Assembly: GCF_000427665.1 (NCBI RefSeq)
Contig: NZ_KE386572.1
Span: 2,008,196-2,072,195 of the forward strand
Direction of reading: 5' to 3'
Source of the DNA: Geminicoccus roseus DSM 18922
GTDB lineage: Bacteria > Pseudomonadota > Alphaproteobacteria > Geminicoccales > Geminicoccaceae
DNA length: 64,000 nt
Part shown: positions 7,277 through 29,174 of the stretch, in pieces
How positions within the stretch are numbered: position 1 is the first letter of the stretch
Layout: each line of letters starts with the position of its first letter
Program-made: the position numbers and the translations under genes
Notes under the pieces: generated by a model
Seen by the model: the letters and a program-made list of their open reading frames with translations, nothing else
The model's database searches: none
Told to the model about the DNA's origin: nothing

Positions 7277-7287
7277 GGTGACCGATC

Positions 7288-9507
7288 ATGAAGCCCGCCC
7301 CCGACTTCCTGATCCTCCAGTCGGCCATGGACGCCGTGGTGGAGGCCCGTCACGGCGACCCGTTCGCCGTGCTGGGACCGCACGAAGTCGAGGGCGGGAT
7401 CGTGATCCGCGCCTTTCTGCCCGGCGCGATGAGCGTCGAGGTGGTCGAGACCGCCACGGGCGAGGCGATCGGGGCGCTGGAGCGCCGCCATCCGGCCGGC
7501 TTCTTCGAGGGGGTCCTGGCGGACCGCCCGGCCTGGCTCGCCTACCGGCTGCGCGCCACCAGCTTCGAGGGGGTGGTGTGGGAGACCGAGGACCCCTACC
7601 GGTTCGGGCCGGTGCTGGGTCCGCTCGACGACTATCTGCTGGGCGAGGGCACCCATCGCCGCCTGTGGGAGAAGCTGGGCGCCCACCTGATCGAGCATGA
7701 AGGCGTCAGGGGCGTCCATTTCGCGGTCTGGGCGCCCAATGCCGACCGGATCGCCGTGGTCGGCGAGTTCAACGACTGGGACGGCCGCCGCCACCCGATG
7801 CGCCGCCGGCTGGGGGCGGGGGTGTTCGAGCTGTTCGTGCCGGGCGTGGGCGAAGGAGCCCTGTACAAGTACGAGATCCGCGGCCCCGACGGCAACCTGC
7901 TGCCGCTCAAGGCCGACCCAGTGGGATTCGGCGCGGAATACCGGCCGGGCACCGCCTCGCGGGTCAGCAAGGTCGACGCGTTCGCCTGGGCGGATGCGGA
8001 CTGGATGACCCGGCGGGCGGCCCTGCACAACGTCCAGGCGCCGATCTCGGTCTACGAGGTGCACTTAGGATCCTGGGCGCGCGGCGAGGACAACCGCTTC
8101 CTGACCTACGAGGAACTAGGCGACCGGCTGATCCCCTACGCCATCGAGATGGGCTTCACCCATCTGGAGCTCCTGCCGATCACCGAGCACCCGTTCGACG
8201 GCTCCTGGGGCTACCAGCCGCTCGGCCTGTTCGCGCCGACCAGCCGGTTCGGCAGCCCGGCCGAGTTCGCCCGCTTCGTCGACCGCTGCCACCAGGCAGG
8301 CCTCGGGCTGATCCTGGACTGGGTGCCCGGTCACTTCCCGACCGACGCCCACGGCCTTGGCCGTTTCGACGGCACCGCCCTCTACGAGCATGCCGACCCG
8401 CGCCAGGGCTTCCACCAGGACTGGAACACCCTGATCTACAATTTCGGCCGGGCCGAGGTGATCAACTACCTGCACGCCAACGCCCTGTTCTGGCTGGACA
8501 ACTACCACCTGGACGGGCTGCGCGTGGATGCGGTGGCCTCGATGCTGTACCTGGACTACTCGCGCAAGCATGACGAGTGGGTGCCCAACAAGTACGGCGG
8601 CAACGAGAACCTGGAAGCCGTCGACTTCATGCGCCGGATGAACGAGCTGGCCTATGGCGAGAACCCGGGCGTGATGACGGTGGCCGAGGAATCAACCTCC
8701 TGGCCCGGCGTGTCGAAGCCGACCTGGACGGGGGGGCTGGGCTTCGGGTTCAAGTGGAACATGGGGTGGATGAACGACACCCTGGATTACATCAGCAAGG
8801 ACCCGGTCCATCGTCGCTGGCACCACCACCAGATGACGTTCGGCCTGCTCTACGCGTTTTCCGAGAACTTCATCCTGCCGATCAGCCATGACGAGGTGGT
8901 GCACGGCAAGGGCTCGCTGCTCACCCGGATGCCGGGCGACACGTGGCAGAAGTTCGCCAACCTGCGGGCCTATTTCGGCTTCATGTGGGGCCATCCCGGC
9001 AAGAAGCTGCTGTTCATGGGCCAGGAGTTCGCCCAGGGCGCCGAGTGGAGCGAGGCGCGCAGCCTGGACTGGCACCAGCTCGACATCGACTTGCACAAGG
9101 GCGTCCAGGACCTGGTGCGCGACCTGAACCATCTCTACCGGGAGACGCCGTCGCTCCATCGGCACGACTGCCATGGCGAGGGCTTCCAGTGGATCGACGC
9201 CAGCGATTCCGAGCATTCGGTCTACGCGTTCCTGCGCCTGGGCGACGCGGATCACCCGCCGGTCATGGTGGTCTGCAATTTCACCCCTAATCCGCACGTG
9301 AATTATCGGATCGGCCTGCCGCAACCGGGGCGCTGGAGGGAAGTTCTGAACACCGACGCCGCTTGCTACCGGGGAAGCGGGATGGGCAATGCCGGCGGGA
9401 TCGACAGCGAGCCGACCTCCTGGCACGGCCGCCCCTGCTCGGCCCAGGTCACGCTGCCGCCGCTTTCCACCCTTTTCTTCGTGGCGGAGGGCGTGCAGGA
9501 GTCGTGA
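7288..9507 (+). CDS. glgB: 1,4-alpha-glucan branching enzyme
   Basis: Creates alpha-1,6 branches in glycogen by moving short alpha-1,4 chains. The 739 residues have an N-terminal branching-enzyme domain (residues 1-110), a CBM48 domain ([21 protein letters not shown], about residues 140-165), a GH13 barrel and a C-terminal all-beta domain. The catalytic triad is visible: nucleophile Asp414 ([10 protein letters not shown]), acid/base Glu467 (TVAEEST) and Asp535 ([11 protein letters not shown]). Length and motifs are typical of GlgB. The start ATG has GAGGTG upstream and lies 11 bases after glgP. Confidence 0.96.
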
Positions 9508-9544
9508 GCGATGCGGCTGGGCATATCGGGGAAGGGAACGGCGC

Positions 9545-10812
9545 ATGGTCGAAGCAAAAACACCCACCACCGCACTGGCGCGCAATGCCATGGCCTATGT
9601 CCTGGCCGGCGGACGTGGCTCGCGACTTCATGAACTCACCGACCGGCGTGCCAAGCCCGCGGTGTTCTTCGGCGGCAAGACCCGGATCATCGACTTCGCG
9701 CTCAGCAACGCGCTCAATTCCGGGATCCGGCGGATCGCGGTGGCGACCCAGTACAAGGCGCACAGCCTGATCCGCCACCTCCAGCGCGGCTGGAACTTCC
9801 TGCGCCACGAGCGCAACGAGGGCTTCGACATCCTGCCCGCCAGCCAGCGGGTCTCGGAGACCCAGTGGTATGAGGGGACCGCCGATGCGGTCTTCCAGAA
9901 CATCGACATCATCCAGGACTATGCCCCGGAGTACATGGTCATCCTGGCCGGCGACCATGTGTACAAGATGGATTACGGCCTGATGCTCCAGCAGCATGTG
10001 GATACCGGCGCCGACGTGACCGTCGGCTGCCTGGAGGTCCCGCGCATGGAGGCGACCGCGTTCGGGGTGATGCATGTCGACGAGGAATCCCGTATCGTCG
10101 ACTTCCTGGAGAAGCCGGCCGATCCGCCCAGCATTCCAGGCAGCCCGGACGTGGCGCTGGCCAGCATGGGGATCTACGTCTTCAAGACCGACTTCCTGTT
10201 CGACCAGCTCCGCCGCGACGCGGAGACCCCCGGTTCCGCCCGGGACTTCGGCAAGGACCTGATCCCCTACATCGTCGAGCACGGCAAGGCGGTGGCGCAC
10301 CGCTTCACCCAGTCCTGCGTCCGCTCCAAGGCGGAGAGCATGGCGTACTGGCGCGATGTCGGCACGATCGATGCCTACTGGGAAGCCAGCATCGACCTGA
10401 CCGACATCGTCCCGGAGCTGGACCTGTTCGACCAGGACTGGCCGATCTGGACCTATTCCGAGCTCACCCCGCCGGCCAAGTTCGTCCACGACGTGGACGG
10501 GCGCCGGGGCGAGGCGGTCAGCTCGCTGGTCGCTGGCGGCTGCATCGTGTCCGGCTCGCGGATCCGGCGCTCGCTCCTGTCCACCGGCGTCCATGTCCAC
10601 TCCTACGGCCTGCTCGACGGCGCGGTGGTGCTGCCGCGCGCCCAGATCGGCCGGGGCACCCGCCTGCGCAACGTGGTGGTCGACAGCAGCGTGGTGATCC
10701 CGGACGGGCTCGTGGTCGGCGAGGATCCGGAACTGGATGCCCAGCGCTTCCGCCGGACCAGCCGCGGCATCTGCCTGATCACCCAGCCCATGATCGACCG
10801 GCTGGCCGTCTG

Positions 10813-13901: not shown

Positions 13902-16900
13902 GTGGACCTGCGGGTCCTCCCGGGGCGTCCCTATCCGCTGGGCGTCACCCTTGACGGGAATGGCGTGAACGTCGCGCTGCCGACGGTCGACGCGCAGAAG
14001 ATCGAGTTCTGCATCTTCGACGGCAGGGGCGAGCGGGAGATCGCCCGCCTGGCCCTGCCGGAGCGGTCCAACGGCATCGTGTTCGGCCGGATCGAGGGCG
14101 TGGCGCCCGGCACCCGCTACGGCCTGCGCGTCCATGGGCCCTACGCGCCGAGGGCCGGCCACCGCTTCAACCCGAACAAGCTGCTGGTCGACCCGTTCGC
14201 CCGGATGCTGGACCGGCCGTTCCGCTTGGCGCGCTCCATGTTCGGTTACCAGCGCGGCCATCACGACGCCGACCTGTCCTTCGACGAGCAGGACAGCGCG
14301 CCGGACATGCCCAAGGCGATCGTGACCAAGCCGTCCCGGCCTTGCGCCGACAGCCGCCCGCGCACCGCCTGGACCCGGACCATCGTCTACGAGGCCCATG
14401 TGAAGGGCCTGACCAGGCTGCACCCGGCCCTGCCGGAACGGGTGCGCGGCAAGCTGACCGGCCTGGCCGAGCCGGCGATCCTGGACCACCTGACCAGGCT
14501 CGGCGTGACCGCGGTGGAGCTCCTGCCGATCCACGCCTTCCTGGACGAGCGCCATCTGGTGGAGAACGGCCTCGGCAACTACTGGGGCTACAACCCGGTG
14601 GCCTTCTCCGCTCCCGACCCGCGCTACCTGGTCGACGGCGGGGAGGACGAGCTGGCGGCCACCGTCGAGCGCCTGCACGGGGCCGGGCTCGAGGTGATCC
14701 TGGACGTGGTCTACAACCACAGCGCCGAGGGCGACGAGTTCGGCCCGACCGTTTCCCTGCGCGGCCTGGACAACGCCCTCTACTACCGCCTGGACCCGGC
14801 CGACCCCCGCTCCTACCTGAACGATTCGGGCTGCGGGAACACGCTGGCGGTCGAGCGGGCGCCGGTGCTGCGCCTGGTCATGGATTCGCTGCGCCACTGG
14901 GCGTCCCTGGGCGTGGACGGCTTCCGCTTCGACCTGGCCCCGACCGTGGCGCGGAATGCGGCCGGCTTCCAGGGCGACGGCGCCTTCCTGATGGCGCTGC
15001 GCCAGGACCCGGTCCTGGCCGACCTGAAGCTGATCGCCGAGCCCTGGGACATCGGGCCGGGCGGCTGGCAGACCGGCAACTTCCCGGACGGGTTCACCGA
15101 ATGGAACGACCGCTACCGGGACGACCTGCGCCGGTTCTGGAAGGGCGAGCCGGAGATGATCGGCCCGCTGGCGACCCGGCTGGCCGGCTCGCAGGACCTG
15201 TTCGGCCGGAACGGCCGGGGGCCCTGGGCCAGCCTGAACTTCATCACCGCCCATGACGGCTTCACCCTGCGCGACCTGGTCTCCTACGAGCGCAAGCACA
15301 ACCAGGCCAACCTGGAGGACAGTCGCGACGGGACCGACGACAACCATTCCTGGAACAACGGGGTCGAGGGACCGTCCAACGATCCGGCGGTGGTGGCCAG
15401 GCGCAAGGACGACATCCGCGCGCTGATGGCAGCCCTGATCCTCTCGCGCGGCACCCCGATGCTGACCATGGGCGACGAGTTCGCCCGCAGCCAGGGCGGC
15501 AACAACAACGCCTACTGTCAGGACGGGCCGCAGACCTGGCTGAACTGGACCGAGCTGCCGCCGGAGGGCGAGGGGCTGGTGGATCTGGTCGGCCAGCTCG
15601 TCCGCCTGCGCCAGGCGCATCCCGCCCTGCATCCCGAGCGCTTCCTGAACGGGCAGAGCGTGACTTGGCGGCGCGAGGACGGCCGCGCCTTCGACAATGG
15701 CGACTGGTACCGCCACGACCGCCGCTTTATCGGCATGGAGCTGCGCACCGAGCCGGACGCCCATGGTCTGGAAGACCCAGATCATGTCTATGTCGCGGTC
15801 AACGCCCACGACGCCCCGGTCCGCCTGACCCTGCCGCCCGCCGATCATCGCTGGCGGCTGGAACTATCGTCCGCGTCGGGCGCTTCACCGGTGCCGCATG
15901 GCATCCAACCCGAGCTGCAGGCCCGATCCGTGACCGTGCTGACCGACCGCGCCGCCCCCAGCGACGGCAACGACCCTGAGACCCTGAAGCGGCTGGCCGA
16001 CCTCGCCGGCATCGACCTCGCCTGGTGGGACATCGCCGGCACCCGCCACGAGGTGGCGCCGGACAGCCTGAAGGCGCTGCTGCGCGCGATGCGGATCCCG
16101 GCCGACAGCCCGGGCGACATCGCCGATTCCTTCACCCGGCTGGATCAGGCGCCCTGGCAGGCGACCCTGCCGAAGCTCTCCAGCGGCCGCGCCGACCGGC
16201 CGATCGTGCTGGACGTCACCGTCTCGGACGCCGAGCGCGCTCTGGAACTCGACCTGGCGTCGGAGGACGGCCAGGAACGCCGGATCACCCTGCGCCCGGC
16301 CGACGGCCAGCAGGTCGGGCAGCGCCAGCTGGACGGAGCGACGCGCACCCGCTGGCGGGTCACCCTGCCGGAAGCCCTGCCGGCCGGCCGCTGGCAGGTC
16401 CGCGGCGAGCACGGCCCGGCCCACCTGATCGTCTCGCCCGGCCGCTGCTTCCTGCCGCCGGCGCTGCGCGACGGGGGGCGCCGGTTCGGGGTGACCACCC
16501 ATCTCTATTCCCTGCGCCGCCAGGAGCACGATCCGGGCATCGGCGATTTCGGCACGCTCGCCTTGTTCGTCGACGCCTGCAAGAAGCTCGGCGCCGACGT
16601 GGTCGGGCTGAACCCGTTCCACGCCCTGTTTCTGAGCGATCCCGGCCGGGCCAGCCCGTACTACCCGTCCGACCGCCGCTTTTTGGACCAGCGCTATCTC
16701 GCCAGCGTGCTGGACCGGCAGTACCTGCCAGAGAGCGGCGGCCGGATCATCGACTATCCCAAGGTCGCGATGGGCAAGCTCGCCGCCGCCGAGCAGTCCT
16801 ACGCCGCCTTGAGCGACCAGTCCGGCCTCGACCTGTTCATCGCCGAATTCGGCAGCCAGATCACGGCGTTCGCCACCTTCCAGGCGCTGGAGGAGCAGTT

Positions 16901-17969
16901 CGGCTCCAGCAACTGGCGCGCCTGGCCGGAATGGGCGCGCCGGCCGGAGACGGTGGGCGACCGGGTCGATCCGGCCCGGGTCCGCTTCTTCGCCTACCTG
17001 CAATGGATGCTCGACCAGCAGCTCGCCGCCGCGGCCGGCCAGGCCGAGGGCATGGCGGTGGGGCTCTACCGCGACCTTGCGGTGGGGGCTGCGCCGGAAG
17101 GGGCGGAGTTCTGGTCGCAGCAGGACCGGTTCGCCCAGAACGTCGCGGTCGGCTCGCCGCCCGACCCGTTCAGCCCGACCGGGCAGATCTGGGGCGTACC
17201 GCCGCTCGACCCGCAGGTGCTGATGGCCGAGGGCCTGGCCGGCTGGCGCGACCTGCTGCGCGCCAACATGCGCCATGCCGGCGCCTTGCGGATCGACCAC
17301 GCCATGACCCTGCAGCGCCTGTTCTGGGTGCCCTCCGGCGCCTCGGCGCTGGACGGCGCCTATGTGCGCAACCCGGTCGACGCGATGTTCGCCGAGCTGG
17401 CGCTGTCCAGCCACGAATATTCCTGCATGGTGGTGGCCGAGGACCTGGGCACGGTGCCGGAAGGCTTCGGCGACCGCCTGGCCGATGCCGACATCCTGTC
17501 CACCAAGGTGATGTGGTTCGAGCGGGACGGCATGCGGTTCAAGCCGCCGGGCGAGTGGGCGGAGCGCGCCGCCGCCTGCATCTCCACCCACGACCTGGCG
17601 ACGCTTGCCGGGTTCTGGAAGGCCGACGACATCGAGCTGCGCGCCCGGGTGCACGGCACCGCACCCTCCGATCAGGCCCTGGCCGAGCGTGCGGAGGAAA
17701 AGGCGGGCCTCGCGGCGCTGATGGGCATCGACCCGGCCGACGAGGCCGCGCTGGCGCCGGCTGCCCATGCCATGCTGGCGCGCACCCCCTGCTCCCTGGT
17801 GCTGGCCCAGGCCGAGGACCTGGTGGGCGAGGTCGAGCAGCTCAACCTGCCCGGCACCGACATGGAGCGGCCGAACTGGCGCCGCCGGCTGGAGGTTCCG
17901 GTGGAAGAACTTGCCGATCACCCCTTGGCCCAGCGCGTGGTCGCCTCCATGAAGGCGGAACGACCTTGA
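13902..17969 (+). CDS. glgX-malQ: bifunctional glycogen debranching enzyme GlgX / 4-alpha-glucanotransferase MalQ fusion
   Basis: A single 1355-residue frame joins two complete enzymes. Residues 1-685 are GlgX: N-terminal CBM48-like domain, GH13 barrel with DVVYNH (268-273), nucleophile Asp344 (GFRFDLA), acid/base Glu380 (IAEPWD) and Asp452 (TAHDGF), then a beta domain. After a linker of only about 10 residues, residues 695-1355 are a full-length MalQ (GH77): nucleophile Asp1132 ([17 protein letters not shown]), Glu1180 ([10 protein letters not shown]) and Asp1231 (STHDLAT). GlgX cuts the alpha-1,6 stubs left by phosphorylase and MalQ disproportionates the released maltodextrins, so product and substrate are matched. 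The start is GTG 13902, immediately after the pgm stop. No frameshift or stop is seen at the junction. Confidence 0.94.
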
Positions 17970-18781: not shown

Positions 18782-20068
18782 TCAGGCTTCCGCCTCGATC
18801 AGCGCCCGCTCCAGGATCGACAGGCCTTCCTCGACCACCTCGTCGGGGGCGGTGAGCGGGACCAGCACCCGCAGCACGTTGCCGGCATAGCCGCTGGTCA
18901 GGATCACCAGGCCGTCGCGGCGCGCCAGGGTCGCGACCTTGCGGGCAAGCGCCGTGGCCGGCTCCCTGGTCGCCCGGTCGGCGACCAGCTCGATGGCCAC
19001 CATCGCTCCGAGGCCGCGGACCTCGCCGATCGAGGTGACGTCGTTGCGCCGCGCGATCCCCTCTAGCCGTTCGGTCAGAAGGGCGCCCAGGTCCAGGCTG
19101 CGTTGCAGGAGGCCCTGCTCCTCGATCACCTCCAGCACCGCCAGCGCCGCCGCGCAGGCCAAAGGATTGCCGGAAAAGGTGCCGCCGAGCCCGCCCTGGC
19201 CGACCTTGTCCATGATTTTGGCCCGGCCGATCACCGCCGAGAGCGGCAGCCCGGCCGCCAGGCTCTTCGAGGTGACCACCAGGTCCGGCACCACGCCGGA
19301 ATGCTCGATCGAGAAATACCTGCCGGTCCGGCCCATCCCGGCCTGCACCTCGTCCGAGATCAGCAGGATGCCGTGCCGGTCGCACAAGGCCCGCAACTCG
19401 CGCAGGAACCCGAACGGCGCCACGTGGAAGCCGCCTTCGCCCTGCACCGGCTCGATGATGATGGCGCCGACCCGGTCCGGGCCGATGTCGTAGCGGAACA
19501 GGTCCTCGATCCCGTCCAGCGACTGCCGCTCGCTCACCCCGTGATAGGGTGAGGGGAACGGGGCGTGGTAGACCTCGCCCGGCATCGGCCCGAATCCGGT
19601 CTTGTAGGGCGACACCTTGCCGGTCAGCGCCAGGGTCAGGAGGGTGCGGCCATGGAAGGCGCCGGAAAAGGCGATCACGCCCGGCCGGCCGGTGGCGGCG
19701 CGGGCGATCTTCACCGCGTTCTCGTTGGCCTCGGCCCCGGTGGTGAACAGGATGGTCTTCTTGCGGGCAGGCCCTGGAGCCAGCGCGTTCAGCTTCTCGG
19801 CCAGCTCCACGTAGAGCTCGTAGGGCAGGACCTGGAAGGCGGTGTGGGTGAAGCCGTCCAGCTGCCGGCGGACCGCCTCCAGCACCTTGGGGTGGCGGTG
19901 GCCGACATTCTGCACGCCGATCCCGCCGGCAAAATCGATGTAGCGCCTGCCTTCGACATCCCAGACGAAGGCGTTCTCCGCCTTTGCGGCATAGACGCCG
20001 GTGGGGTTGCTGACCCCGGGTGCCACGGCGGCGTCACGCCGGGCGCGGAGGTCCGCGTTGCTCGTCAC
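18782..20068 (-). CDS. gabT: 4-aminobutyrate aminotransferase (possibly also 5-aminovalerate)
   Basis: PLP-dependent class III aminotransferase moving the amino group of GABA to 2-oxoglutarate, giving succinate semialdehyde. The 428 residues include GGIGVQNVGHRHPKV, the PLP-phosphate block TTGAEANENAVKIARAATGR, SDEVQAGMGRTGRYF and the Schiff-base lysine in VVTSKSLAAGLPLSAV. The start is GTG 20068 (GGAGTG upstream); a longer frame to 20179 would run into the upstream gene and is rejected. It is the last gene of the operon, 16 bases after the 2-monooxygenase, and takes the GABA expected from GbuA. The same family also handles 5-aminovalerate (DavT), which matters if the operon acts on lysine. 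Confidence 0.88.
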   Translation of the reverse strand: MTSNADLRARRDAAVAPGVSNPTGVYAAKAENAFVWDVEGRRYIDFAGGIGVQNVGHRHPKVLEAVRRQLDGFTHTAFQVLPYELYVELAEKLNALAPGPARKKTILFTTGAEANENAVKIARAATGRPGVIAFSGAFHGRTLLTLALTGKVSPYKTGFGPMPGEVYHAPFPSPYHGVSERQSLDGIEDLFRYDIGPDRVGAIIIEPVQGEGGFHVAPFGFLRELRALCDRHGILLISDEVQAGMGRTGRYFSIEHSGVVPDLVVTSKSLAAGLPLSAVIGRAKIMDKVGQGGLGGTFSGNPLACAAALAVLEVIEEQGLLQRSLDLGALLTERLEGIARRNDVTSIGEVRGLGAMVAIELVADRATREPATALARKVATLARRDGLVILTSGYAGNVLRVLVPLTAPDEVVEEGLSILERALIEAEA

Positions 20069-20084
20069 GATCCAGTCACTCCGA

Positions 20085-21776
20085 TCAGTCGGGAAGCGCC
20101 ACCGGGGCCCGGTCCTGGAACAGATCGCCCGGACCAGGGTTGCCGGGGAGGCTCGATCCGCCGAGATGACGTACAACACCCCAGACCGCGTTCAAAGCCG
20201 TCGTGACCGCCCCTTCTGCCCATCCCGCTGTCCAGGACACGTCGTCGCCGGCCAGGAAGATGCCGCGCTGTCCGGGCGGCAGCCCGTCCTGCATGAAATG
20301 CGTGAACAGGCGGCGCTGGTAGCGGTAGTGGCCGGGCAGGTTGGCCTTGAACGCGCCCATGAAGTTCGGGTCGGCTTCCCAGGAGACGGTGATCGGGTGG
20401 CCGATGATGTGCCGGCGGATGTCCAGGCCAGGGTAGATCTGCGCCAGGCTGTGCAGCATCAGCCGCACCCGCTCGTCCACCGGCAGGGACAGCCATTTCA
20501 GGGCGTCGTCGTTCCAGGTGTAGGACAGGCAGATCACGCTTGGCCTGCCCTCGCCCTGGTCGAGCAGGTAGGTGCCGCGGGTCAGCCGGTCGGACAGGGT
20601 CATGCTCATCCGGTCGCGCCCGGTGGCGGGATCGACGTCCTTCCAGAACGGCCGGTCCACCAGCACGAAGGTCTTGGACGCCTGCATGTAGTGGGTGCGC
20701 TCCATCGCCATCCACATGGGATGGGGGAACAGCGCCTCGTCGCAGTCGATCCGCGCGGACAGCAGCCAGACCTGGCAGGTCGCCACGGCGGCCTCGAAGC
20801 ACTGCCGGTTGCCCCAGCGGTCGGTGATCGCGATCCGGCCGTCGGCGTCCCGCCCGATCCTGGCCACCCCGGGCATCGGCATGCCGTTGTGCAGCGCCTT
20901 GAGCGAGGTGCCGTCCGGCCAGTGCACCAGTCCGTCCAGCTTCTGCTCCCACAGGCGCACCGGCAGTTGCTCGACCCCGCCCAGCACGGAGCGATGGTCC
21001 TCGTCGGCGTTGGTGTAGACGACCCGCAGGATCTCCAGCATCGAGTTGGGATAGTCGGTGTCCCAGCCGCCGGTGCCAAAGCCGACCTGGCCGAACACCT
21101 CGCGATGGCGGAACGAGCGCCGGGCAAACGCTTTCGAGCGGGCGATGAAGCCGTAGAAGCTCTGCTCGTCCAGGGCGGGGACCAGCTGGTTCCAGACCGC
21201 TTTCAGCGTAGGCACGTCGCGGGCGCGGATGGCGGCCTGCACCTCGGAGAACGATGCCTCCTGCTCCAGCATCTCCTTCCAGGCATCGGCCACCTCCTGG
21301 AACAATGGCGGCAGGTCCGCCAGCCGGCGGGCGTAGTGGGCCTGGCCGCCCAGCTCGATCACGGTGCTGCGGCAGGCGGGGGTGAGCGGGTTGGGGAAGG
21401 GCCGGGTGCGCAGCCCGACCTTGTCCATGTAGTGGAACAGCGTCGTGGAGGAGGGCGGGAAGCGCATGGCGCCCAGCTCGGCAATGGTGCCGTCGCCGCC
21501 CTTGAACGTCTCCGAGCGCAGCCGCCCGCCGATCCGGTCGGCCTCGTAGACCACCGGCTTGAGGCCCAGCTTCATCAGCTCATAAGCCGCGACGATGCCC
21601 GAGATCCCGGCGCCGATCACCGCCACCTCGGTGCCGTGCCGCGTCGCCGGCAGCCGGCCGAGCCCTGCCGGGTGGGCGACATGGTCGTCATAGGCGAACG
21701 GGAAGTCCGGCCCGAACATGGTGACCGGCCGGGTGTCTGCGCCGCGCGCCCGGACCCCCGGCATGGATGCGGACAT
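20085..21776 (-). CDS. flavin amine-oxidase family L-amino-acid 2-monooxygenase (DavB-like; arginine or lysine)
   Basis: A 563-residue FAD enzyme resembling lysine 2-monooxygenase DavB over its whole length as far as I recall that sequence: N-terminal FGPDFPFAYDD, the dinucleotide motif VIGAGISGIVAAYELMKLG, GGRLRSETF, ELGAMRFP, and the C-terminal GDDVSWTAGWAEGAV that closes over the FAD. DavB oxidatively decarboxylates L-lysine to 5-aminovaleramide; arginine 2-monooxygenase does the same with L-arginine to give 4-guanidinobutyramide. The neighbour gbuA, which acts only on guanidino compounds, argues for arginine (inference). Start ATG 21776 has GAGGGG 8 bases upstream, inside the end of gbuA. 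Members of this family often show some oxidase side activity, which would yield the 2-oxo acid used by AruI next door. Confidence 0.85.
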   Translation of the reverse strand: MSASMPGVRARGADTRPVTMFGPDFPFAYDDHVAHPAGLGRLPATRHGTEVAVIGAGISGIVAAYELMKLGLKPVVYEADRIGGRLRSETFKGGDGTIAELGAMRFPPSSTTLFHYMDKVGLRTRPFPNPLTPACRSTVIELGGQAHYARRLADLPPLFQEVADAWKEMLEQEASFSEVQAAIRARDVPTLKAVWNQLVPALDEQSFYGFIARSKAFARRSFRHREVFGQVGFGTGGWDTDYPNSMLEILRVVYTNADEDHRSVLGGVEQLPVRLWEQKLDGLVHWPDGTSLKALHNGMPMPGVARIGRDADGRIAITDRWGNRQCFEAAVATCQVWLLSARIDCDEALFPHPMWMAMERTHYMQASKTFVLVDRPFWKDVDPATGRDRMSMTLSDRLTRGTYLLDQGEGRPSVICLSYTWNDDALKWLSLPVDERVRLMLHSLAQIYPGLDIRRHIIGHPITVSWEADPNFMGAFKANLPGHYRYQRRLFTHFMQDGLPPGQRGIFLAGDDVSWTAGWAEGAVTTALNAVWGVVRHLGGSSLPGNPGPGDLFQDRAPVALPD

Positions 21777-21788
21777 CGGTCGGCCCCC

Positions 21789-22736
21789 TCAGCTCCGGTA
21801 CTGGACCCCCGGCAGCACGCACAGCATCTCGAACAGGATGTTGGCCGCGACCAGCGCGGTGGTTCCGGCCTGGTCGTAGGGAGGCGACACCTCGACCAGG
21901 TCGCAGCCGACCAGGTTCAGGCCCCGGCAGCCGCGCACGATCTCCAGGGCCTGCCAGATGGTGAGCCCGCCCACCTCCAGCGTGCCGGTGCCAGGCGCGA
22001 AGGCAGGGTCCAGGCTGTCGATGTCGAAGCTCATGTAGACCGGGCCGTCGCCCATCATGGCGCGGACCTCGGCCATGAGCGGCACCAGCGACTTGTGCCA
22101 GCACTCCTCGGCCTGGACGACCCGGAAGCCCTGCTGGCGCGGCCAGTCGAAATCGTCGGCGGCATAGCCCGAGCCGCGCAGGCCGATCTGGATGGCCCGC
22201 TTCGTGTCGATGGCGCCGGCCTCGACCGCGCGGCGGAACGGGGTCCCGTGCGCGATCTTCTCGCCGAACATCTCGTCGTTGATGTCGGCATGGGCATCCA
22301 CATGGATCAGCCCGACCGGCCCGTGCTTCTTCGCGACCGCGCGCAGGATCGGGTAGACCAGGGTGTGGTCGCCGCCGAGACCCAGCGGGATGCAGCCGGT
22401 CGCCAGGATCCGGTCGTAATGGTCCTCGATGATCTGGACCGACTTCTTCAGGTCGAACGTGTTGGTGGGGATGTCGCCGATGTCCGCCACCTGCAGGCTG
22501 TCGAAGGGGGCGGCCCGGGTCGCCATGTTGTAGGGCCGGATCATCGTCGATTCCTGGCGGATCTGGCGCGGCCCGAACCGGGTCCCGGCCCGGTGCGAGG
22601 CGCCGATGTCCATGGGGATCCCGACGAAGCAGGCATCCAGGCCTTCGGCGGATGCGGCGGCCGGCAGGCGCATCATCGTGCCCGGCCCGGCGAAGCGCGG
22701 CATCTCGTTGCCACCGAGCGGCTGGTTGAAGGTCAT
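21789..22736 (-). CDS. gbuA: guanidinobutyrase (ureohydrolase family)
   Basis: Mn-dependent ureohydrolase predicted to split 4-guanidinobutyrate into GABA and urea. The 315 residues hold the metal ligands His124 (GGDHT), Asp147-His149-Asp151 (DAHAD) and Asp238/Asp240 (SFDID). The N-terminus QPLGGNEMPRFAGPGTMMRL and the segment ESTMIRPYNMATRAAPFDSL are distinctive of guanidinobutyrase as opposed to ordinary agmatinase; this rests on remembered family sequences, so agmatinase is the main alternative. The four-base ATGA overlap with the amidase upstream fixes the start at 22736. Confidence 0.87.
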   Translation of the reverse strand: MTFNQPLGGNEMPRFAGPGTMMRLPAAASAEGLDACFVGIPMDIGASHRAGTRFGPRQIRQESTMIRPYNMATRAAPFDSLQVADIGDIPTNTFDLKKSVQIIEDHYDRILATGCIPLGLGGDHTLVYPILRAVAKKHGPVGLIHVDAHADINDEMFGEKIAHGTPFRRAVEAGAIDTKRAIQIGLRGSGYAADDFDWPRQQGFRVVQAEECWHKSLVPLMAEVRAMMGDGPVYMSFDIDSLDPAFAPGTGTLEVGGLTIWQALEIVRGCRGLNLVGCDLVEVSPPYDQAGTTALVAANILFEMLCVLPGVQYRS

Positions 22737-23542
22737 GCAGGGTCTCCGTGGGCCAGCGGCGCGTACAGCTCCGGCCGGCGGTCGGCGAGATAGGTGTAGA
22801 GCGGGCGCGAGCGGTCCAGTATGGCGAGGTCGATCTCGGCGCCGACCACCTCCTCGCCGCGGCCGGCACGGGCAAGGTCCTGGCCCTCGGGGCCGACCAC
22901 GCAGCTCAGCCCGCAATAGTCGAGTTCGCCTTCCCGCCCGCAATGGTTGGCATAGGCGATGAAGACCTGGTTCTCGATGGCGCGGGCCGGGACGATGGTG
23001 CGCGCGATCACGTCGTAGGGCTGCATCAGCGCAGTCGGCACCGCCACCAGCTGCGCGCCCTCCAGGGCCAGCGCCCGAACCGCCTCCGGAAACTCGACGT
23101 CGTAGCAGATCAGGACGCCCACCCGGATCCCGTCCAGCTCGACCACCGGGGCATGCGCCGGACCCGGCTGGAACATCGCGCGATCCAGGTCGGTGAACAG
23201 GTGGCACTTGCGGTAGTTCAGCAGCGTCCGGCCGGTCCGGTCGATCAGGATCGCGGCGTTGTAGACCTGCCCGTCCTCTCCGCGCTCGGGGTAGCCGTAC
23301 AGCAGGGCGGTGCCGGTGGCCCTGGCGATCATCGCTGCCCGTCGCGCCGACGGCCCATCGACCGGCTCGGCCAGCCGTGCCGCCGCTTCCCGGCCGATGT
23401 TGTAGCCGGACAGGAACATTTCCGGGCTGACCAGCAGCCCGCCTTCCTGGCGCGCCGCCACCTCGGCCATGTGCTCCAGGTTCTCCGCCGGCGTTCCTGC
23501 TTTCAGCGGTCCCTGGAACAGCCTCACCCGCATCGTCGTCAT
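22733..23542 (-). CDS. carbon-nitrogen hydrolase, DavA-like omega-amidase (4-guanidinobutyramide or 5-aminovaleramide)
   Basis: A 269-residue nitrilase-superfamily amidase. The catalytic Glu41 (SPEMFLSGYNIG), Lys112 (NYRKCHLF) and Cys146 (LICYDVEFPE) are all present. Length and sequence are close to 5-aminovaleramidase DavA, the partner of DavB, so it should hydrolyse the amide made by the 2-monooxygenase: 4-guanidinobutyramide to 4-guanidinobutyrate if the substrate is arginine. N-carbamoylputrescine amidase is a weaker alternative because no agmatine deiminase is present. Start ATG 23542 overlaps the aruI stop by four bases. Confidence 0.87.
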   Translation of the reverse strand: MTTMRVRLFQGPLKAGTPAENLEHMAEVAARQEGGLLVSPEMFLSGYNIGREAAARLAEPVDGPSARRAAMIARATGTALLYGYPERGEDGQVYNAAILIDRTGRTLLNYRKCHLFTDLDRAMFQPGPAHAPVVELDGIRVGVLICYDVEFPEAVRALALEGAQLVAVPTALMQPYDVIARTIVPARAIENQVFIAYANHCGREGELDYCGLSCVVGPEGQDLARAGRGEEVVGAEIDLAILDRSRPLYTYLADRRPELYAPLAHGDPA

Positions 23543-25146
23543 CCTTCAGCAGCCAGAAACGGCGCCGCCTCGTCGATCTCGATCAGCGTCGGGACGCTGC
23601 GCCCGACCGAAGCCTGCAGCAGCGCGTCCAGGTGATCGAGGCCGGTGGCCCGATCCGCCGCGCAGCCATAGGCCCGGGCGATCGCCACGAAGTCCGGCGT
23701 CACCAGTTCGACGCCGATCGGCGGCACCCCTGTCTCGTTCATATAGGTCTTGATCTCGCCATAGCCCCGGTTGTTCCAGAGCAGGATCACGATCGGCACC
23801 TGCGCTTCCACCGCGGAGGCCAGCTCGGGCAGGGTGAACTGGAAGCCGCCATCGCCGATCAGCGCCAGCACCGGGCGGTGCGGGACCGCCAGCTTCGCCC
23901 CGATCGCCGCCGGCAGCGCATAGCCGAGCGTGCCGTAGCCGGTGGAGGCGTTGAACCAGGAGCGCGGCCGGGCAGGGGCGTAGAACTGGTTGCCGCCATA
24001 GACCGGCTGGGTCTGGTCGCCGGCGATCACCGCCCCGGGCAGCGCCCGGTCGACCGCGTCCAGGACCCGCCGCTGGCCGGCAATGGCGGGCCACCACAGG
24101 GCCTGGACCTCCGTGCGGACCTTCATCGCCCGTTCCCGACCGTCCCCGGCCAGATTGGGCGCCCGGACCGCCTGCAGAAGCGCGTCCAGCGCCGTTCGGG
24201 CATCGCTCACGATCGGCACGTCGGCTGTCCGTATGCGCGCCAGCTGTCCTGGATCGATGTCGATCCGGATCAACCGGCCGTCGAACGCCAGTTCCTGCGG
24301 ATCGGGATACATCTCGGTCTCGCCGAACTCGGTGCCCACCGCCAGCACCACGTCCGCCTCGCGCAGCGCCTGGCGCAGGGGCTGGAAGCCCAGATTCTCG
24401 CCCAGATGCAAAGGATGGCCCGGCGGCATCACGCCCTTGGCGTTGACCGTGTTGGTGAAGGTGGCGCCCAGCAGTTCGATCAGCGCCCGGGCCGGCTCGC
24501 CGGCCTCCACCGCACCGCCGCCCAGCACCACCAGCGGCCGCACGGCTTGGCGCAGCAGCTCGGCTGCCCGGGCGATGGCGGCCGGCCCCGGGCCGGGCGG
24601 CTCCGGCGCCGGGCGCACCGTCAGGTCGAGATGGCCGGCCTCGGCACGGATCACATCGGTGGGGATCTCGATCAGGACCGGGCGCGGCCGGCTGCTGCGG
24701 AACAGGGCGAAGGCGCGGGCCAGCACCTCGGGCAGCTGGTCGGGCGAGAGGATCGTGTGGCTGAACGCGCTGACCTGGGCGGCGAGGTCGCGCTGCGCGG
24801 CCAGTTCGTGCAGGGCGCCGCGCCCCATGCCCAGCTGGTCGGTGCGGTTGACGCTGGAGACCACCAGCATCGGCACGCTGTCGCCATACGCCTGGCCCAT
24901 GGCGGTCAGGATGTTGGTGACGCCCGGGCCGGTCACGGTGAAGCAGGCGGCCGGACGGCCGGTGGCGCGGGCATAGCCGTCGGCCATGAACCCGGCGCCC
25001 TGCTCGTGGCGCGGGGTGACGTGGCGAAGCCCGGTCGCGGGCAGACCGCGATAAAGCTCGACCGTGTGCACGCCAGGGATGCCGAACACGATTTCGATGC
25101 CGTGGGCCTCCAGCAGGCGGACCAGGACTTCGCCGGTGGTGGTCAT
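23539..25146 (-). CDS. aruI: thiamine-diphosphate enzyme, AruI-like 2-ketoarginine (5-guanidino-2-oxopentanoate) decarboxylase
   Basis: A 535-residue ThDP enzyme of the acetolactate-synthase fold: catalytic Glu48 in RHEQGAGFMADGYAR, central FAD/NAD-like domain, and the ThDP motif running from GDGGFQF to LLWNN. The N-terminus (FGIPGVHTVELYRGL) agrees with AruI of the arginine transaminase pathway, which decarboxylates 2-ketoarginine to 4-guanidinobutyraldehyde. Operon context supports this over acetolactate synthase: no regulatory subunit gene, and gbuA and gabT downstream. The start at 25146 (MTTTGEV) is 5 bases after the stop of the permease gene. The partner aminotransferase AruH and the aldehyde dehydrogenase are not in the window. 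Confidence 0.82.
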   Translation of the reverse strand: MTTTGEVLVRLLEAHGIEIVFGIPGVHTVELYRGLPATGLRHVTPRHEQGAGFMADGYARATGRPAACFTVTGPGVTNILTAMGQAYGDSVPMLVVSSVNRTDQLGMGRGALHELAAQRDLAAQVSAFSHTILSPDQLPEVLARAFALFRSSRPRPVLIEIPTDVIRAEAGHLDLTVRPAPEPPGPGPAAIARAAELLRQAVRPLVVLGGGAVEAGEPARALIELLGATFTNTVNAKGVMPPGHPLHLGENLGFQPLRQALREADVVLAVGTEFGETEMYPDPQELAFDGRLIRIDIDPGQLARIRTADVPIVSDARTALDALLQAVRAPNLAGDGRERAMKVRTEVQALWWPAIAGQRRVLDAVDRALPGAVIAGDQTQPVYGGNQFYAPARPRSWFNASTGYGTLGYALPAAIGAKLAVPHRPVLALIGDGGFQFTLPELASAVEAQVPIVILLWNNRGYGEIKTYMNETGVPPIGVELVTPDFVAIARAYGCAADRATGLDHLDALLQASVGRSVPTLIEIDEAAPFLAAEG

Positions 25147-25151
25147 GATGG

Positions 25152-25946
25152 TCAGTCCCTGGACCAGGCGCCGAGCAGCTTGGGCAGGTCGCCAAAGCGC
25201 GCGATCAGCCCGAAGATCACGGTCGCCAGCAGCACGAACACCACGGCCACCACCGCCATGACGGGAGTGTAGCCGTAGCGCAGGCTGTTGAAGATCTTGA
25301 TCGGCAGCGTCTCCACGGTGAAGCCCGCCACCATGTAGGCCACGATGTACTCGTTCAGGCTGAGCACGAAGGCGAAGGCGTAGCCGGAGATCAGGTAGGG
25401 CCGCACCAGGGGCAGGGTGACGGTCCGGAACACGGTCGCCTCGTCGGCGCCCATGGTGGTGGCCGCCTCCAGGAGCTGCCGGTCGATGGCGTTCAGGCCC
25501 AGGCTGATCATCACCAGCGGCAGGGTGACGAAAAAGATCGCGTGGCTGACGATGGTGGCGACGATCGAGCCGTACAGGCCGACGCTCACCCAGAACACCA
25601 GGAAGCCCAGGGCAGTGATCACCGGCGGCAGGGTGAACGGCGCCACCCCGAGCCCATAGAGCAGCTTGCCGTAGCCGACCCGCCACCGCCAGATGAACCA
25701 GGCCAGCGGGAACGCGATCAGGACCGCCAGGGCAGCGGAACTGAACGCAATGATCAGGCTGTTGCTCATGGCGTTCAGCCAGGCCGGCTCGTTGAACAGC
25801 TCAGCGTACCAGCCAAGCGACGGGTCGCGCGGCGGGAAGCGCAGCTGCTGGCCGCCGTTGAGGGACACGCCGGCCACCACCAGCAGCGGCAGCGCCATGA
25901 ACAGCACGACCAGGCCCATGAACAGGTCGCGGCCGAACCGGCTCAT
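25152..25946 (-). CDS. ABC transporter permease, PotC/PotI type
   Basis: A 264-residue inner-membrane permease with about six hydrophobic segments and the EAA loop EAATTMGADEATVFRTVTLP that contacts the ATPase. It belongs to the spermidine/putrescine permease group. It starts at ATG 25946, overlapping the stop of the partner permease by four bases. It forms the channel with the 25943-26800 product and is driven by the 26797-27849 ATPase. The cargo is probably a polyamine-like or guanidino compound given the catabolic genes in the same operon (inference). Confidence 0.92.
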   Translation of the reverse strand: MSRFGRDLFMGLVVLFMALPLLVVAGVSLNGGQQLRFPPRDPSLGWYAELFNEPAWLNAMSNSLIIAFSSAALAVLIAFPLAWFIWRWRVGYGKLLYGLGVAPFTLPPVITALGFLVFWVSVGLYGSIVATIVSHAIFFVTLPLVMISLGLNAIDRQLLEAATTMGADEATVFRTVTLPLVRPYLISGYAFAFVLSLNEYIVAYMVAGFTVETLPIKIFNSLRYGYTPVMAVVAVVFVLLATVIFGLIARFGDLPKLLGAWSRD

Positions 25947-26800
25947 CGGGGCGCCTCCCGGTTGGTCCCCAGCACCATGGTGAGCCCGATGAAGGCCAGG
26001 CTCACCAGCATCAGGAAGATCGCCATGGCCGCGGCGAACGGGATGTTCGACTGGAACACCGCCTGGTCGGTGATGTGCACCGACAGGGTCCAGTGCTGCG
26101 GCCGGCCCAGCACCTGGGGCAGCAGGAAGGCGCCCAGGTTGAACACGAACACCATGATCAGCGCCCCGATCAGGGAGTTCTTCAGGACCGGCACCACCAC
26201 CAGGAAGAAGGTGCGCAACGGCGAGGCGCCCAGCATCCGCGACGCTTCCGGCAGCTCCGGGTCCAGGCGCGACAAAGCCGGGTAGAGGATCAGCACGGTG
26301 TAAGGGAAGCCCAGGTAGCAGAGCCCCATCAGGAGCGCGCCGAAGCTGGGCGTCCAGGCCTCCGCCCGGGCCAGCGCCCCCAGCCAGACCAGCACGTTGG
26401 ACAGGCCGGCGGTGCGCGAGAGCAGGGTCGACCAGGTGAAGCCGATGATCACCTCGGAAAGGGAGAGCACCGCCAGGATGAACACCAGGAACGGCACCTG
26501 CGAGCGGCGGCGCAGCCGGGTCAGGAAATAGGTGAACGGGAAGCCGACCGCGACCACGAGGGCCGCAGCCAGGATCGAGATCCATACCGAGAACAGCAGG
26601 GTCCTGCCGAAGAACGCGCTCAGGAACCGGGCATAGTTGTCCAGCTCGAAGCCCGGCTCGTAGAACGCGCCCTCGACCTGGTGAAAGAAGCTGACCGCCA
26701 GCATGATGGCGAACGGGACCACGAAGAACAGGACCAGCATGCCCGCCGGCCACAGCATCGGCAGGTGGCCGGCCAGGCCCTGCGGGCGCTTCCCGGTCAT
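25943..26800 (-). CDS. ABC transporter permease, PotB/PotH type
   Basis: A 285-residue inner-membrane permease with an N-terminal membrane anchor (MLWPAGMLVLFFVVPFAIML), further hydrophobic segments and the coupling loop EASRMLGASPLRTFFLVVVP. It is the first of the two permease subunits of the importer, overlapping the ATPase stop and the second permease start by four bases each, the usual sign of balanced translation of complex subunits. Confidence 0.92.
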   Translation of the reverse strand: MTGKRPQGLAGHLPMLWPAGMLVLFFVVPFAIMLAVSFFHQVEGAFYEPGFELDNYARFLSAFFGRTLLFSVWISILAAALVVAVGFPFTYFLTRLRRRSQVPFLVFILAVLSLSEVIIGFTWSTLLSRTAGLSNVLVWLGALARAEAWTPSFGALLMGLCYLGFPYTVLILYPALSRLDPELPEASRMLGASPLRTFFLVVVPVLKNSLIGALIMVFVFNLGAFLLPQVLGRPQHWTLSVHITDQAVFQSNIPFAAAMAIFLMLVSLAFIGLTMVLGTNREAPR

Positions 26801-27849
26801 GACGGCAGCATCACGCAGGCCGCCTCAGGCATTTCCACCGTCACCGCGTCCCCGGTCCGCACGTCCGGCCGGGCGCGCGGGCTCGTCACCGCCAGCACCT
26901 CCGTGCCGGCGCAGTCCAGCATGATCTCGACGCTGGCGCCGAGGTCGCGGACGAAGGTCACTTTTGCCGGCAGCCGGTTCGGACCTGGATGGCTGCCCGG
27001 GTGGACCAGCACCTCCTCCGGCCGGATCGAGACCGTGGCTTTCGTGCCCTTCGCCAGCTTGCGCTGGCCGTCCCCGGCGATGCTCGCCTCGCCAACCGCG
27101 AGCGCCCCGCCCGCGTCGACCACGCCCTGGAGCAGGTTGCTGGAGCCGATGAAGTCGGCGACGAAGGCGTTGACCGGGCTGCGGTAGATCTCGACCGGCG
27201 GGCCCACCTGCTGGACCTGGGCATGGTCCATGACCACCACGATGTCGGCCATGGTCATGGCTTCCCGCTGGTCATGGGTCACCACGATGGTCGAGATGCC
27301 CAGCCGCTGCTGCAGGAGCTTCAGCTCGACCTGCATGGTCTCCCGGAGCTTGGCGTCCAAGGCCGAGAGCGGCTCGTCGAGCAGGAACAGCTTGGGGTCC
27401 AGGGCCAGGGCGCGGGCGATGGCGACGCGCTGGCGCTGCCCGCCGGAGAGCTGCGACACCTGCCGGTCGGCCACGCCCGGCAGGCGCACCAGCTCCAGCA
27501 GTTCCTCCGCCTTGCGGCGCCGGGCCGCCGGGTCGACCCCGCGGATCCGCAACCCGTAGGCAATGTTCTCGCCCACCGTCAGGTGCGGGAACAGGGCCAG
27601 GGACTGGAACACCATGCCCAGGCCGCGCTGGTGGGCGGGCACGGCCGTGATGTCCTGGTTGTCCAGCAGGATCCGGCCGGAGGTGGGCGCCTCCAGGCCG
27701 GCGATCACCCGCAAGAGGGTGGTCTTCCCGCAGCCCGACGGGCCCAGCAGGCAGATGAACCTGCCGTCGGGGAAGTCCAGGTCGATGTCCTTCAACGCCT
27801 CGAACATGCCGAAGGACTTGCCGACATGGTCGACGCGCAGTCCGGACAT
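26797..27849 (-). CDS. ABC transporter ATP-binding protein, PotA/PotG type
   Basis: A 350-residue importer ATPase: Walker A GPSGCGKTT (residues 36-44), Q-loop FQSLALFP, signature LSGGQRQR (134-141), Walker B LFLLDEP (154-160), switch His in VTHDQREA, and a C-terminal TOBE-type regulatory domain from about residue 270 (VSIRPEEVLVHPG). This is the polyamine/iron/sugar (MOI/CUT1) subfamily. It powers the two permeases downstream; the solute-binding protein gene is 45 bases upstream. Confidence 0.93.
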   Translation of the reverse strand: MSGLRVDHVGKSFGMFEALKDIDLDFPDGRFICLLGPSGCGKTTLLRVIAGLEAPTSGRILLDNQDITAVPAHQRGLGMVFQSLALFPHLTVGENIAYGLRIRGVDPAARRRKAEELLELVRLPGVADRQVSQLSGGQRQRVAIARALALDPKLFLLDEPLSALDAKLRETMQVELKLLQQRLGISTIVVTHDQREAMTMADIVVVMDHAQVQQVGPPVEIYRSPVNAFVADFIGSSNLLQGVVDAGGALAVGEASIAGDGQRKLAKGTKATVSIRPEEVLVHPGSHPGPNRLPAKVTFVRDLGASVEIMLDCAGTEVLAVTSPRARPDVRTGDAVTVEMPEAACVMLPS

Positions 27850-27894: not shown

Positions 27895-29007
27895 TCAGCC
27901 TGCGATCAGCTCGTTCCATTTCTGGCTGATCCACTCGTCCCTTTCGACATAGAGGTCGTAGCGGGGAATGATCGGCGGGATGTCGCTGCCGACCGCGGCG
28001 AATTCCTCGGCGGTGAGGTCGGTGGTGTCGCGCCGGACCGTGGGCGCGGTCCCGACCTTGCGGGCCAGCTTCGCCTGGATGTCCGGGCGGCACATGTAGT
28101 CGATGAAGACATGCGCCTCGTCGAGCGCGGTGGAAGTCTTCACCACGCACCAGGAGCCGGAATCCAGCACGCCGCCTTCCTCGGGGAAGGTCGAGCGGAC
28201 CGGCTTGCTCTGGCTGGCGGCCAGCCCGGTGACGTCGTGGTAGTACTCGCCCATCGGGATCTCGCCCGATTCCAGCGCCTGCTGGAACTGGCCCTCGTCG
28301 CGCCACCAGAGTTGTACGTTCGGCACCAGCTCCTTCAGCTTGTCGAGCGCCTTCTGCACGCCGGCCTCGTCGGCCAGCATGTCGGTGCCGCCGAACCAGG
28401 TCTTGGCGGTGATCTCCAGCAGGAAGGAGTTCTGGGCCAGCGCCATCAGGCCGAGCAGGCCGGCATTGTCCTCGTCCCACAACGCCTTCCAGGAGGTCGG
28501 CGCCTCGGGGAACTCCTCGGTGTTGGTGGCGAGCGTCACGTACCAGGATACCGCGCCGATTCCGCTGATCGAGCCGTCGGGATAGCGGTGGATGAAATGC
28601 TCGTGCAGGTTCTGGGCGTTGGGCAGCTTCGATTCGTCGAGCTTCGCCCACAGCTCCGAGTTCTCGCCCTTGAGCCTGGCGACCTGGGCCATCATCGAGA
28701 CATCAGCGGGCGCGGCGCCGGCGCGGGCCGCGGTCTGCAACTGCACCAGCCAGGCCTCGCCGGTCGGTTCGGCCACCGATTCCACCTCGATCCCGGTCTC
28801 CGCGGTGAAGTCCGGGTAGATGTGCTCGTCGAAGCTTTCCTTGAAGTAGCCGCCATAGGTGCCGACCTTGAGCGTGCCGGCGGCCCGCGCAGGGCTGGGG
28901 CGCAGGCCGGTTCCGGCGAGCGCGCCGAGCGCCGCGGCGCCCAGCATCAGCTGCCGGCGCCCGCTGGTCAGGAGCCCATGTCCTGACGATCCCATCAACT
29001 TTGCCAT
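27895..29007 (-). CDS. ABC transporter periplasmic solute-binding protein, PotD/PotF type
   Basis: A 370-residue extracellular solute-binding protein. The N-terminus has a twin-arginine-like signal (TSGRRQLMLGAAALGALAG, cleavage around ARA-AG), suggesting Tat export. The mature part begins KVGTYGGYFKESFDEHIYPDF and contains the binding-protein features of the spermidine/putrescine group (LWDEDNAGLLGLMA, GEYYHDVTGLAASQ, DYMCRPDIQAKLA). Start ATG 29007 is preferred to the in-frame ATG at 29130 because the latter adds a polar, highly charged stretch before the signal. First gene of the nine-gene operon; it sets which guanidino or polyamine compound enters. Confidence 0.9.
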   Translation of the reverse strand: MAKLMGSSGHGLLTSGRRQLMLGAAALGALAGTGLRPSPARAAGTLKVGTYGGYFKESFDEHIYPDFTAETGIEVESVAEPTGEAWLVQLQTAARAGAAPADVSMMAQVARLKGENSELWAKLDESKLPNAQNLHEHFIHRYPDGSISGIGAVSWYVTLATNTEEFPEAPTSWKALWDEDNAGLLGLMALAQNSFLLEITAKTWFGGTDMLADEAGVQKALDKLKELVPNVQLWWRDEGQFQQALESGEIPMGEYYHDVTGLAASQSKPVRSTFPEEGGVLDSGSWCVVKTSTALDEAHVFIDYMCRPDIQAKLARKVGTAPTVRRDTTDLTAEEFAAVGSDIPPIIPRYDLYVERDEWISQKWNELIAG

Positions 29008-29129
29008 TGGTGACGTTCCCCGCTGCCGACGGGTGATCGCCACGCCGTCAGCCTCTCGCTTTCCATCATGCTTGCGAGCTTTTTCGGCATTCGTCAAAGG
29101 CTCGGGCTCTCTCCGGAACGCGACCCTCA

Positions 29130-29174
29130 TGCTAGAAAAGCGAACGGGCGGGGCAGCTTGGCTGCCCCGCCCGT
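29130..29174 (-). terminator. intrinsic terminator after the SGNH hydrolase
   Basis: A perfect 14-base inverted repeat, ACGGGCGGGGCAGC (29144-29157) and GCTGCCCCGCCCGT (29161-29174), with a 3-base loop. On the minus strand it is followed by TCGCTTTTCT. It lies 35 bases past the SGNH hydrolase stop and separates that gene from the ABC/catabolic operon. Confidence 0.85.

Follow-up and report, generated by a model that had tools for sequence, protein, structure and literature searches.

A probable L-arginine 2-monooxygenase encoded in a nine-gene operon of Geminicoccus roseus DSM 18922

Within the 64,000-nucleotide stretch of contig NZ_KE386572.1 analysed here (the window), Geminicoccus roseus DSM 18922 carries a gene (20085..21776, minus strand) for an FAD-dependent L-amino acid 2-monooxygenase/oxidase of the L-AAO/MOG (DavB) family, and we consider it probable, from the protein and its gene context, that this enzyme is an L-arginine 2-monooxygenase. 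It is encoded in a cluster of nine genes whose most likely function is the degradation of arginine to 4-aminobutyrate (GABA) and urea. Arginine is inferred to be the best substrate because the operon holds two arginine markers, a 4-guanidinobutyrase (GbuA) and a 2-ketoarginine decarboxylase-like protein (AruI). Close cousins of the FAD enzyme are known, and the finding is thus a new assignment with good support, not a system of a new kind.

The open reading frame is intact, starts with ATG, has AGGGGG ahead of the start and encodes a PF01593 protein of 563 aa with 64% identity to the crystallised L-lysine oxidase/monooxygenase of Pseudomonas sp. AIU 813 (3WE0, 5YB6-8; hereafter the AIU 813 enzyme). 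A phmmer comparison with 3WE0 gave 858 bits over residues 15-563, which bears out the original prediction of a protein that is DavB-like along its length; the next-best relative, tryptophan 2-monooxygenase, has about 30% identity. It had also been guessed that automatic annotation would name a lysine 2-monooxygenase or amine oxidase, and this was roughly right, given that plasmid homologues are named 'NAD(P)/FAD-dependent oxidoreductase' and no NCBIfam model matched the enzyme at its cut-off. The full-length enzyme is present as a single copy in the Geminicoccus genome. An AlphaFold model (pTM 0.84) confirmed the fold, with TM values of 0.88-0.90 to 3WE0, 5YB6 and 5YB7, its pocket loops falling below pLDDT 50 and thus being too uncertain for judging substrate fit.

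Read directly from the window, the FAD gene is the eighth of nine genes on the minus strand, with neighbours that overlap by 4 bp or lie at most 45 bp apart. In the order of transcription, these genes encode a PotD/PotF-like ABC substrate-binding protein (27895..29130), which resembles polyamine-binding proteins and not known arginine-binding ones, a PotA/PhnT-like ATP-binding protein recognized by a profile match (26797..27849), a PotB-like permease (25943..26800; NF007044 match below cut-off) whose gene overlaps that of the ATPase by 4 bp, a PotC-like permease (25152..25946; NF007047 match below cut-off, together with operon geometry), the AruI-like protein (23539..25146), a carbon-nitrogen hydrolase (22733..23542), GbuA (21789..22736), the FAD enzyme and a 4-aminobutyrate aminotransferase (GABA-T, 18782..20068). 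The starts of the second permease and of AruI were shifted to the first ATG for operon geometry, and that of GABA-T was re-assigned to a GTG at 20068, which is preceded by an SD-like sequence and leaves a 16-bp gap after the FAD gene; this last protein scores 586 bits against TIGR00700 (cut-off 506.65). The gene set also occurs in other genera, in the same or a rearranged order, and is therefore not a product of chance. Elsewhere in the window, a 1355-aa open reading frame on the plus strand (13902-17969) combines a region of alpha-amylase (GlgX-like) type with a MalQ 4-alpha-glucanotransferase; it lies downstream of glgB, a glgC-like gene and glgA, and Geminicoccus harenae (L005) has an ORF of equal length at the corresponding position.

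The gene directly upstream of the FAD gene, at a distance of 12 bp, is gbuA, as had been predicted. Its 315-aa product is closest to the Pseudomonas aeruginosa guanidinobutyrase 3NIO (515 bits, against 332 for the guanidinopropionase 3NIP and about 200 for agmatinases) and retains the ureohydrolase motifs GGDHT, DAHAD and SFDIDSLDP as well as the Met161 position, which presumably has a role in specificity. The proximity to 3NIO and the conserved Met161 position together make 4-guanidinobutyrate a well-supported intermediate. The DavA-like amidase (269 aa, PF00795), for which aliphatic amidases are the best PDB matches and which we propose to be a 4-guanidinobutyramide amidohydrolase, adjoins gbuA with a 4-bp overlap, so that gbuA separates it from the FAD gene. 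The AruI-like gene, absent from the original prediction, points to arginine more strongly than the amidase does: its 535-aa product has three TPP enzyme domains and matches NF005712, 5-guanidino-2-oxopentanoate (2-ketoarginine) decarboxylase, with 752.5 bits (curated cut-off 500), this model being of the 'subfamily' and not the equivalog kind. Neither GbuA nor AruI would be needed for lysine breakdown.

In the proposed route, the FAD enzyme would oxidise the alpha-carbon of L-arginine, and the main outcome would be decarboxylation and oxygenation of the intermediate to 4-guanidinobutyramide, CO2 and H2O, with consumption of O2. The amidase would then release ammonia to give 4-guanidinobutyrate, which GbuA would split into GABA and urea, and GABA-T would form succinate semialdehyde from GABA. 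In a predicted minor share of turnovers the FAD enzyme would act as an oxidase and turn L-arginine into 2-ketoarginine; AruI, in a presumed salvage role, would decarboxylate this to 4-guanidinobutyraldehyde, and an aldehyde dehydrogenase encoded elsewhere, for which there are several candidates in the genome, would supply 4-guanidinobutyrate. The genome also has a succinate-semialdehyde dehydrogenase that exceeds the TIGR01780 cut-off, further aldehyde dehydrogenases and urease alpha genes.

The closest characterized relative is itself active on arginine. Arginine 2-monooxygenase activity was measured for the AIU 813 enzyme, with a kcat/Km of 24 for Arg versus 74 for Lys, and a complex with L-Arg is available (5YB8) (PMC5832979). 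An arginine monooxygenase has likewise been assigned in Streptomyces, in a three-enzyme route from arginine via 4-guanidinobutyramide to the azalomycin starter unit, according to the account in PMC5082578 (citing Angew Chem 2013, 52, 13096). The original prediction of a reaction with few or no firmly assigned sequences was therefore overstated. The azalomycin enzyme, compared here by its published description, is alike in that it is proposed to form 4-guanidinobutyramide from Arg and is succeeded by an amidase step; it serves polyketide starter-unit synthesis, whereas the Geminicoccus cluster is proposed to be catabolic. Since the lysine-type enzyme uses arginine (PMC5832979), a preference for arginine is not readable from homology.

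Homologues were collected from 80 named genome contigs, from sampled genomes of the phylum, order and class, from Streptomyces, from the phylum of Pimelobacter and from plasmids, and the alignments were used to identify, in AIU 813 numbering, the residues at ten pocket positions defined by the substrate complexes of that enzyme (PMC5832979). The Geminicoccus pocket (R105, W238, D241, A257, H261, Y419, W421, F476, G518 and W519 in its own numbering) shares seven of the ten with AIU 813, namely R102, W235, D238, Y416, W418, F473 and W516, among which D238 serves basic side chains and F473/W516 form an aromatic cage (PMC5832979). It differs by C254A, Q258H and A515G, and the second-site residues E140 and Q349 are lost as well. 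A254, H258 and G515 define what we call the window type, as against C or L254, Q258 and A515 in the AIU 813/Pseudomonas type; variants on the lysine side are CQG (L116 and L117), FQA (L211) and FQG (L216). Maximum-likelihood trees place the AIU 813/Pseudomonas DavB-like enzymes in one 24-row clade (SH-aLRT 100), and the FAD enzyme falls outside it. The two groups are told apart by 14 alignment sites, seven of which are no more than 3 positions from one of the ten pocket residues (hypergeometric p 9e-5; 0.0025 without the two group-defining sites). Glycine at 515 is also found in tryptophan and phenylalanine enzymes, whose pockets are wider (PMC5832979), for which reason A515 may be the derived, lysine-side state.

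These results bear on whether the enzyme could be a lysine 2-monooxygenase (DavB) after all, converting L-Lys to 5-aminovaleramide, which the amidase would take to 5-aminovalerate and the aminotransferase would process as DavT, while GbuA and AruI formed a separate arginine route sharing the operon. The identity to the lysine enzyme, the conserved D238, the DavA-like amidase and the possibility that the GABA-T family protein serves as DavT all agree with such a function. We nevertheless regard it as very unlikely, given two guanidino-specific enzymes in the same tight operon, a position outside the DavB clade, the differences at C254, Q258 and A515, and the separate lysine-type paralogue that is kept in Zavarzinia. 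Placement inside the characterized lysine enzymes with an identical pocket had been named beforehand as grounds for rejecting arginine; the tree and pocket leave the arginine assignment standing, and with the guanidinobutyrase identity and AruI they support arginine over lysine well.

Position 254 bears on the product. In AIU 813, the C254I exchange raised oxidase activity fivefold and abolished monooxygenase activity, so that this residue controls the product, and with Arg the wild type yields chiefly the amide, at an O/M of 0.26 or roughly four amides to each keto acid (PMC5832979). The alanine of the Geminicoccus enzyme could leak 2-ketoarginine, which would explain the presence of AruI in the operon. 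Taken further, the enzyme might be mainly an L-arginine oxidase that forms 2-ketoarginine, NH3 and H2O2, with AruI providing 4-guanidinobutyraldehyde and the amidase handling a minor amide. The changed residue 254 and the association with AruI, in the operon and beside the FAD gene in Zavarzinia, are consistent with this. However, the wild-type AIU 813 product ratio speaks for the amide, the operon is without a guanidinobutyraldehyde dehydrogenase gene, and no partner accompanies the window type more constantly than the amidase, a homologue of which is close to the FAD gene at 77 of 83 loci, whereas AruI adjoins that gene in only two genera; a predominant oxidase thus appears unlikely, and a monooxygenase remains the preferred assignment. 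On the lysine side, Leu at 254 occurs in L128, L109, L110, L210, L212, L213 and L215, and an amidase gene is missing from the vicinity of three of the four LQA enzymes in the first survey. Some of these Leu254 enzymes may be true lysine oxidases, both for this reason and because Ile254 abolished the AIU 813 monooxygenase.

A ureohydrolase gene was found within 6 kb of window-type enzymes in Geminicoccus, Zavarzinia, Azospirillum, Ancylobacter and Kineococcus, and the same distance yielded none for the 22 lysine-clade enzymes in the first survey. AruI adjoins the FAD gene upstream in Geminicoccus and downstream in both Zavarzinia genomes, so that the order differs and the link is kept. Zavarzinia aquatilis has one copy of each type, and GbuA-like, AruI and ABC transporter neighbours are present only at the window type. 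A Tsukamurella plasmid combines speB, permease, amidase and FAD genes in one gene run, and its FAD enzyme has the pocket residues of the window. The small gene after AruI in Zavarzinia was considered as a Rid imine deaminase and rejected, being the unrelated SelR. The ureohydrolases of Zavarzinia, Azospirillum and Ancylobacter (L006/L127, L007, L008, L129) are 43% identical to Geminicoccus GbuA and are without the Met161 motif; judging from these sequences, the guanidinobutyrase step seems to be filled by different ureohydrolases across genera. One exception to the ureohydrolase pattern is L216 (genome G1104, 6502-10465), a divergent lysine-side enzyme with F254/Q258/G515, which neighbours a gene of a different amidase family (amidase signature, PF01425) and, on the other strand, a GbuA (66%); this locus perhaps represents an arginine route that was assembled a second time, independently. 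CaiB-type CoA-transferase homologues related to succinate-glutarate CoA-transferase, below the cut-off of the model, adjoin the lysine-type genes L107 and L118 and are suggestive of lysine use there.

A Fisher test of ureohydrolase adjacency against pocket type on raw loci gave p 0.2, being swamped by Arthrobacter and Streptomyces loci without a neighbouring ureohydrolase, and an independent-pairs (independent-contrast) test had no power as the split is one deep branch. For the same reason the neighbourhood associations are not separable from ancestry. Whether a genome as a whole encodes a ureohydrolase is uninformative, as 45 of 47 do so irrespective of pocket type.

Streptomyces deserves separate consideration. 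Homologues of the FAD enzyme occur in 144 of 150 genomes, and nearly all whose pocket was read are of the window type, including every first copy among them. S. lividans is described as having no arginine monooxygenase and as making no azalomycin without fed 4-guanidinobutyramide (PMC5082578). Either the gene is absent or silent in this species, or the pocket type alone does not mean arginine; the assignment of the Geminicoccus enzyme therefore rests mainly on its own operon. Second copies in some Streptomyces have W516F and are nested in the same side of the tree as the Geminicoccus enzyme (L195-L202; genomes G898, G860, G866, G833, G857, G908, G950, G837). Neighbours in the loci scanned include a LAL regulator and an AMP-ligase (L195), PKS genes (L197, L198) and a VinK-like acyltransferase, and a ureohydrolase lies 6.7 kb from L202; these copies are candidates for omega-amino/guanidino starter-unit enzymes.

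The near-universal occurrence in Streptomyces, together with the many actinobacterial copies that adjoin a permease of cationic/branched-chain amino-acid type, would also fit a broad or different basic amino-acid monooxygenase acting on homoarginine, canavanine, ornithine or Lys and Arg alike, with an operon that feeds several guanidino and amino acids into one route. The putative polyamine-type transporter of the operon, whose cargo is a prediction, and the preference of AIU 813 for Orn and Lys with acceptance of Arg (PMC5832979) point in the same direction. We hold this to be quite unlikely for Geminicoccus, where GbuA resembles guanidinobutyrase and not guanidinopropionase or agmatinase, which ties the product to the chain length of arginine. 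Arginine remains the likeliest substrate.

Two established routes resemble the proposed one. P. aeruginosa degrades arginine by the AruH-AruI-GbuA arginine transaminase pathway; homologues of AruI and GbuA are present in the Geminicoccus operon, which differs in its amidase and in the proposed use of a flavin monooxygenase for the first attack on arginine. The arginine oxygenase pathway of Streptomyces griseus was reportedly described by Thoai and co-workers as one of a monooxygenase. Its end route through 4-guanidinobutyrate and GABA is the same as that proposed here; it is known from biochemistry, and a link to genes was not found in the literature surveyed. The S. griseus enzyme has also been described as an oxidase/dehydrogenase (PMC2242806).

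We tentatively propose, as a serious possibility and not an expectation, that the operon is a two-branch device built round a two-product flavoenzyme, whose amidase and AruI branches would meet at 4-guanidinobutyrate for GbuA, and that the A254/H258/G515 pocket clade would mark those members of the DavB family, in Alphaproteobacteria and Actinomycetota alike, that are specialised for arginine. What is new is a catabolic gene cluster proposed for the arginine monooxygenase route, in which amide and keto-acid branches are joined, and the presence of a 2-ketoarginine decarboxylase in a monooxygenase operon becomes a testable question. Probable arginine and lysine monooxygenases share 60-65% identity and their automatic names, and residues 254, 258 and 515, combined with ureohydrolase or AruI neighbours, provide a handle on them and a residue rule that could separate these two misannotated groups.
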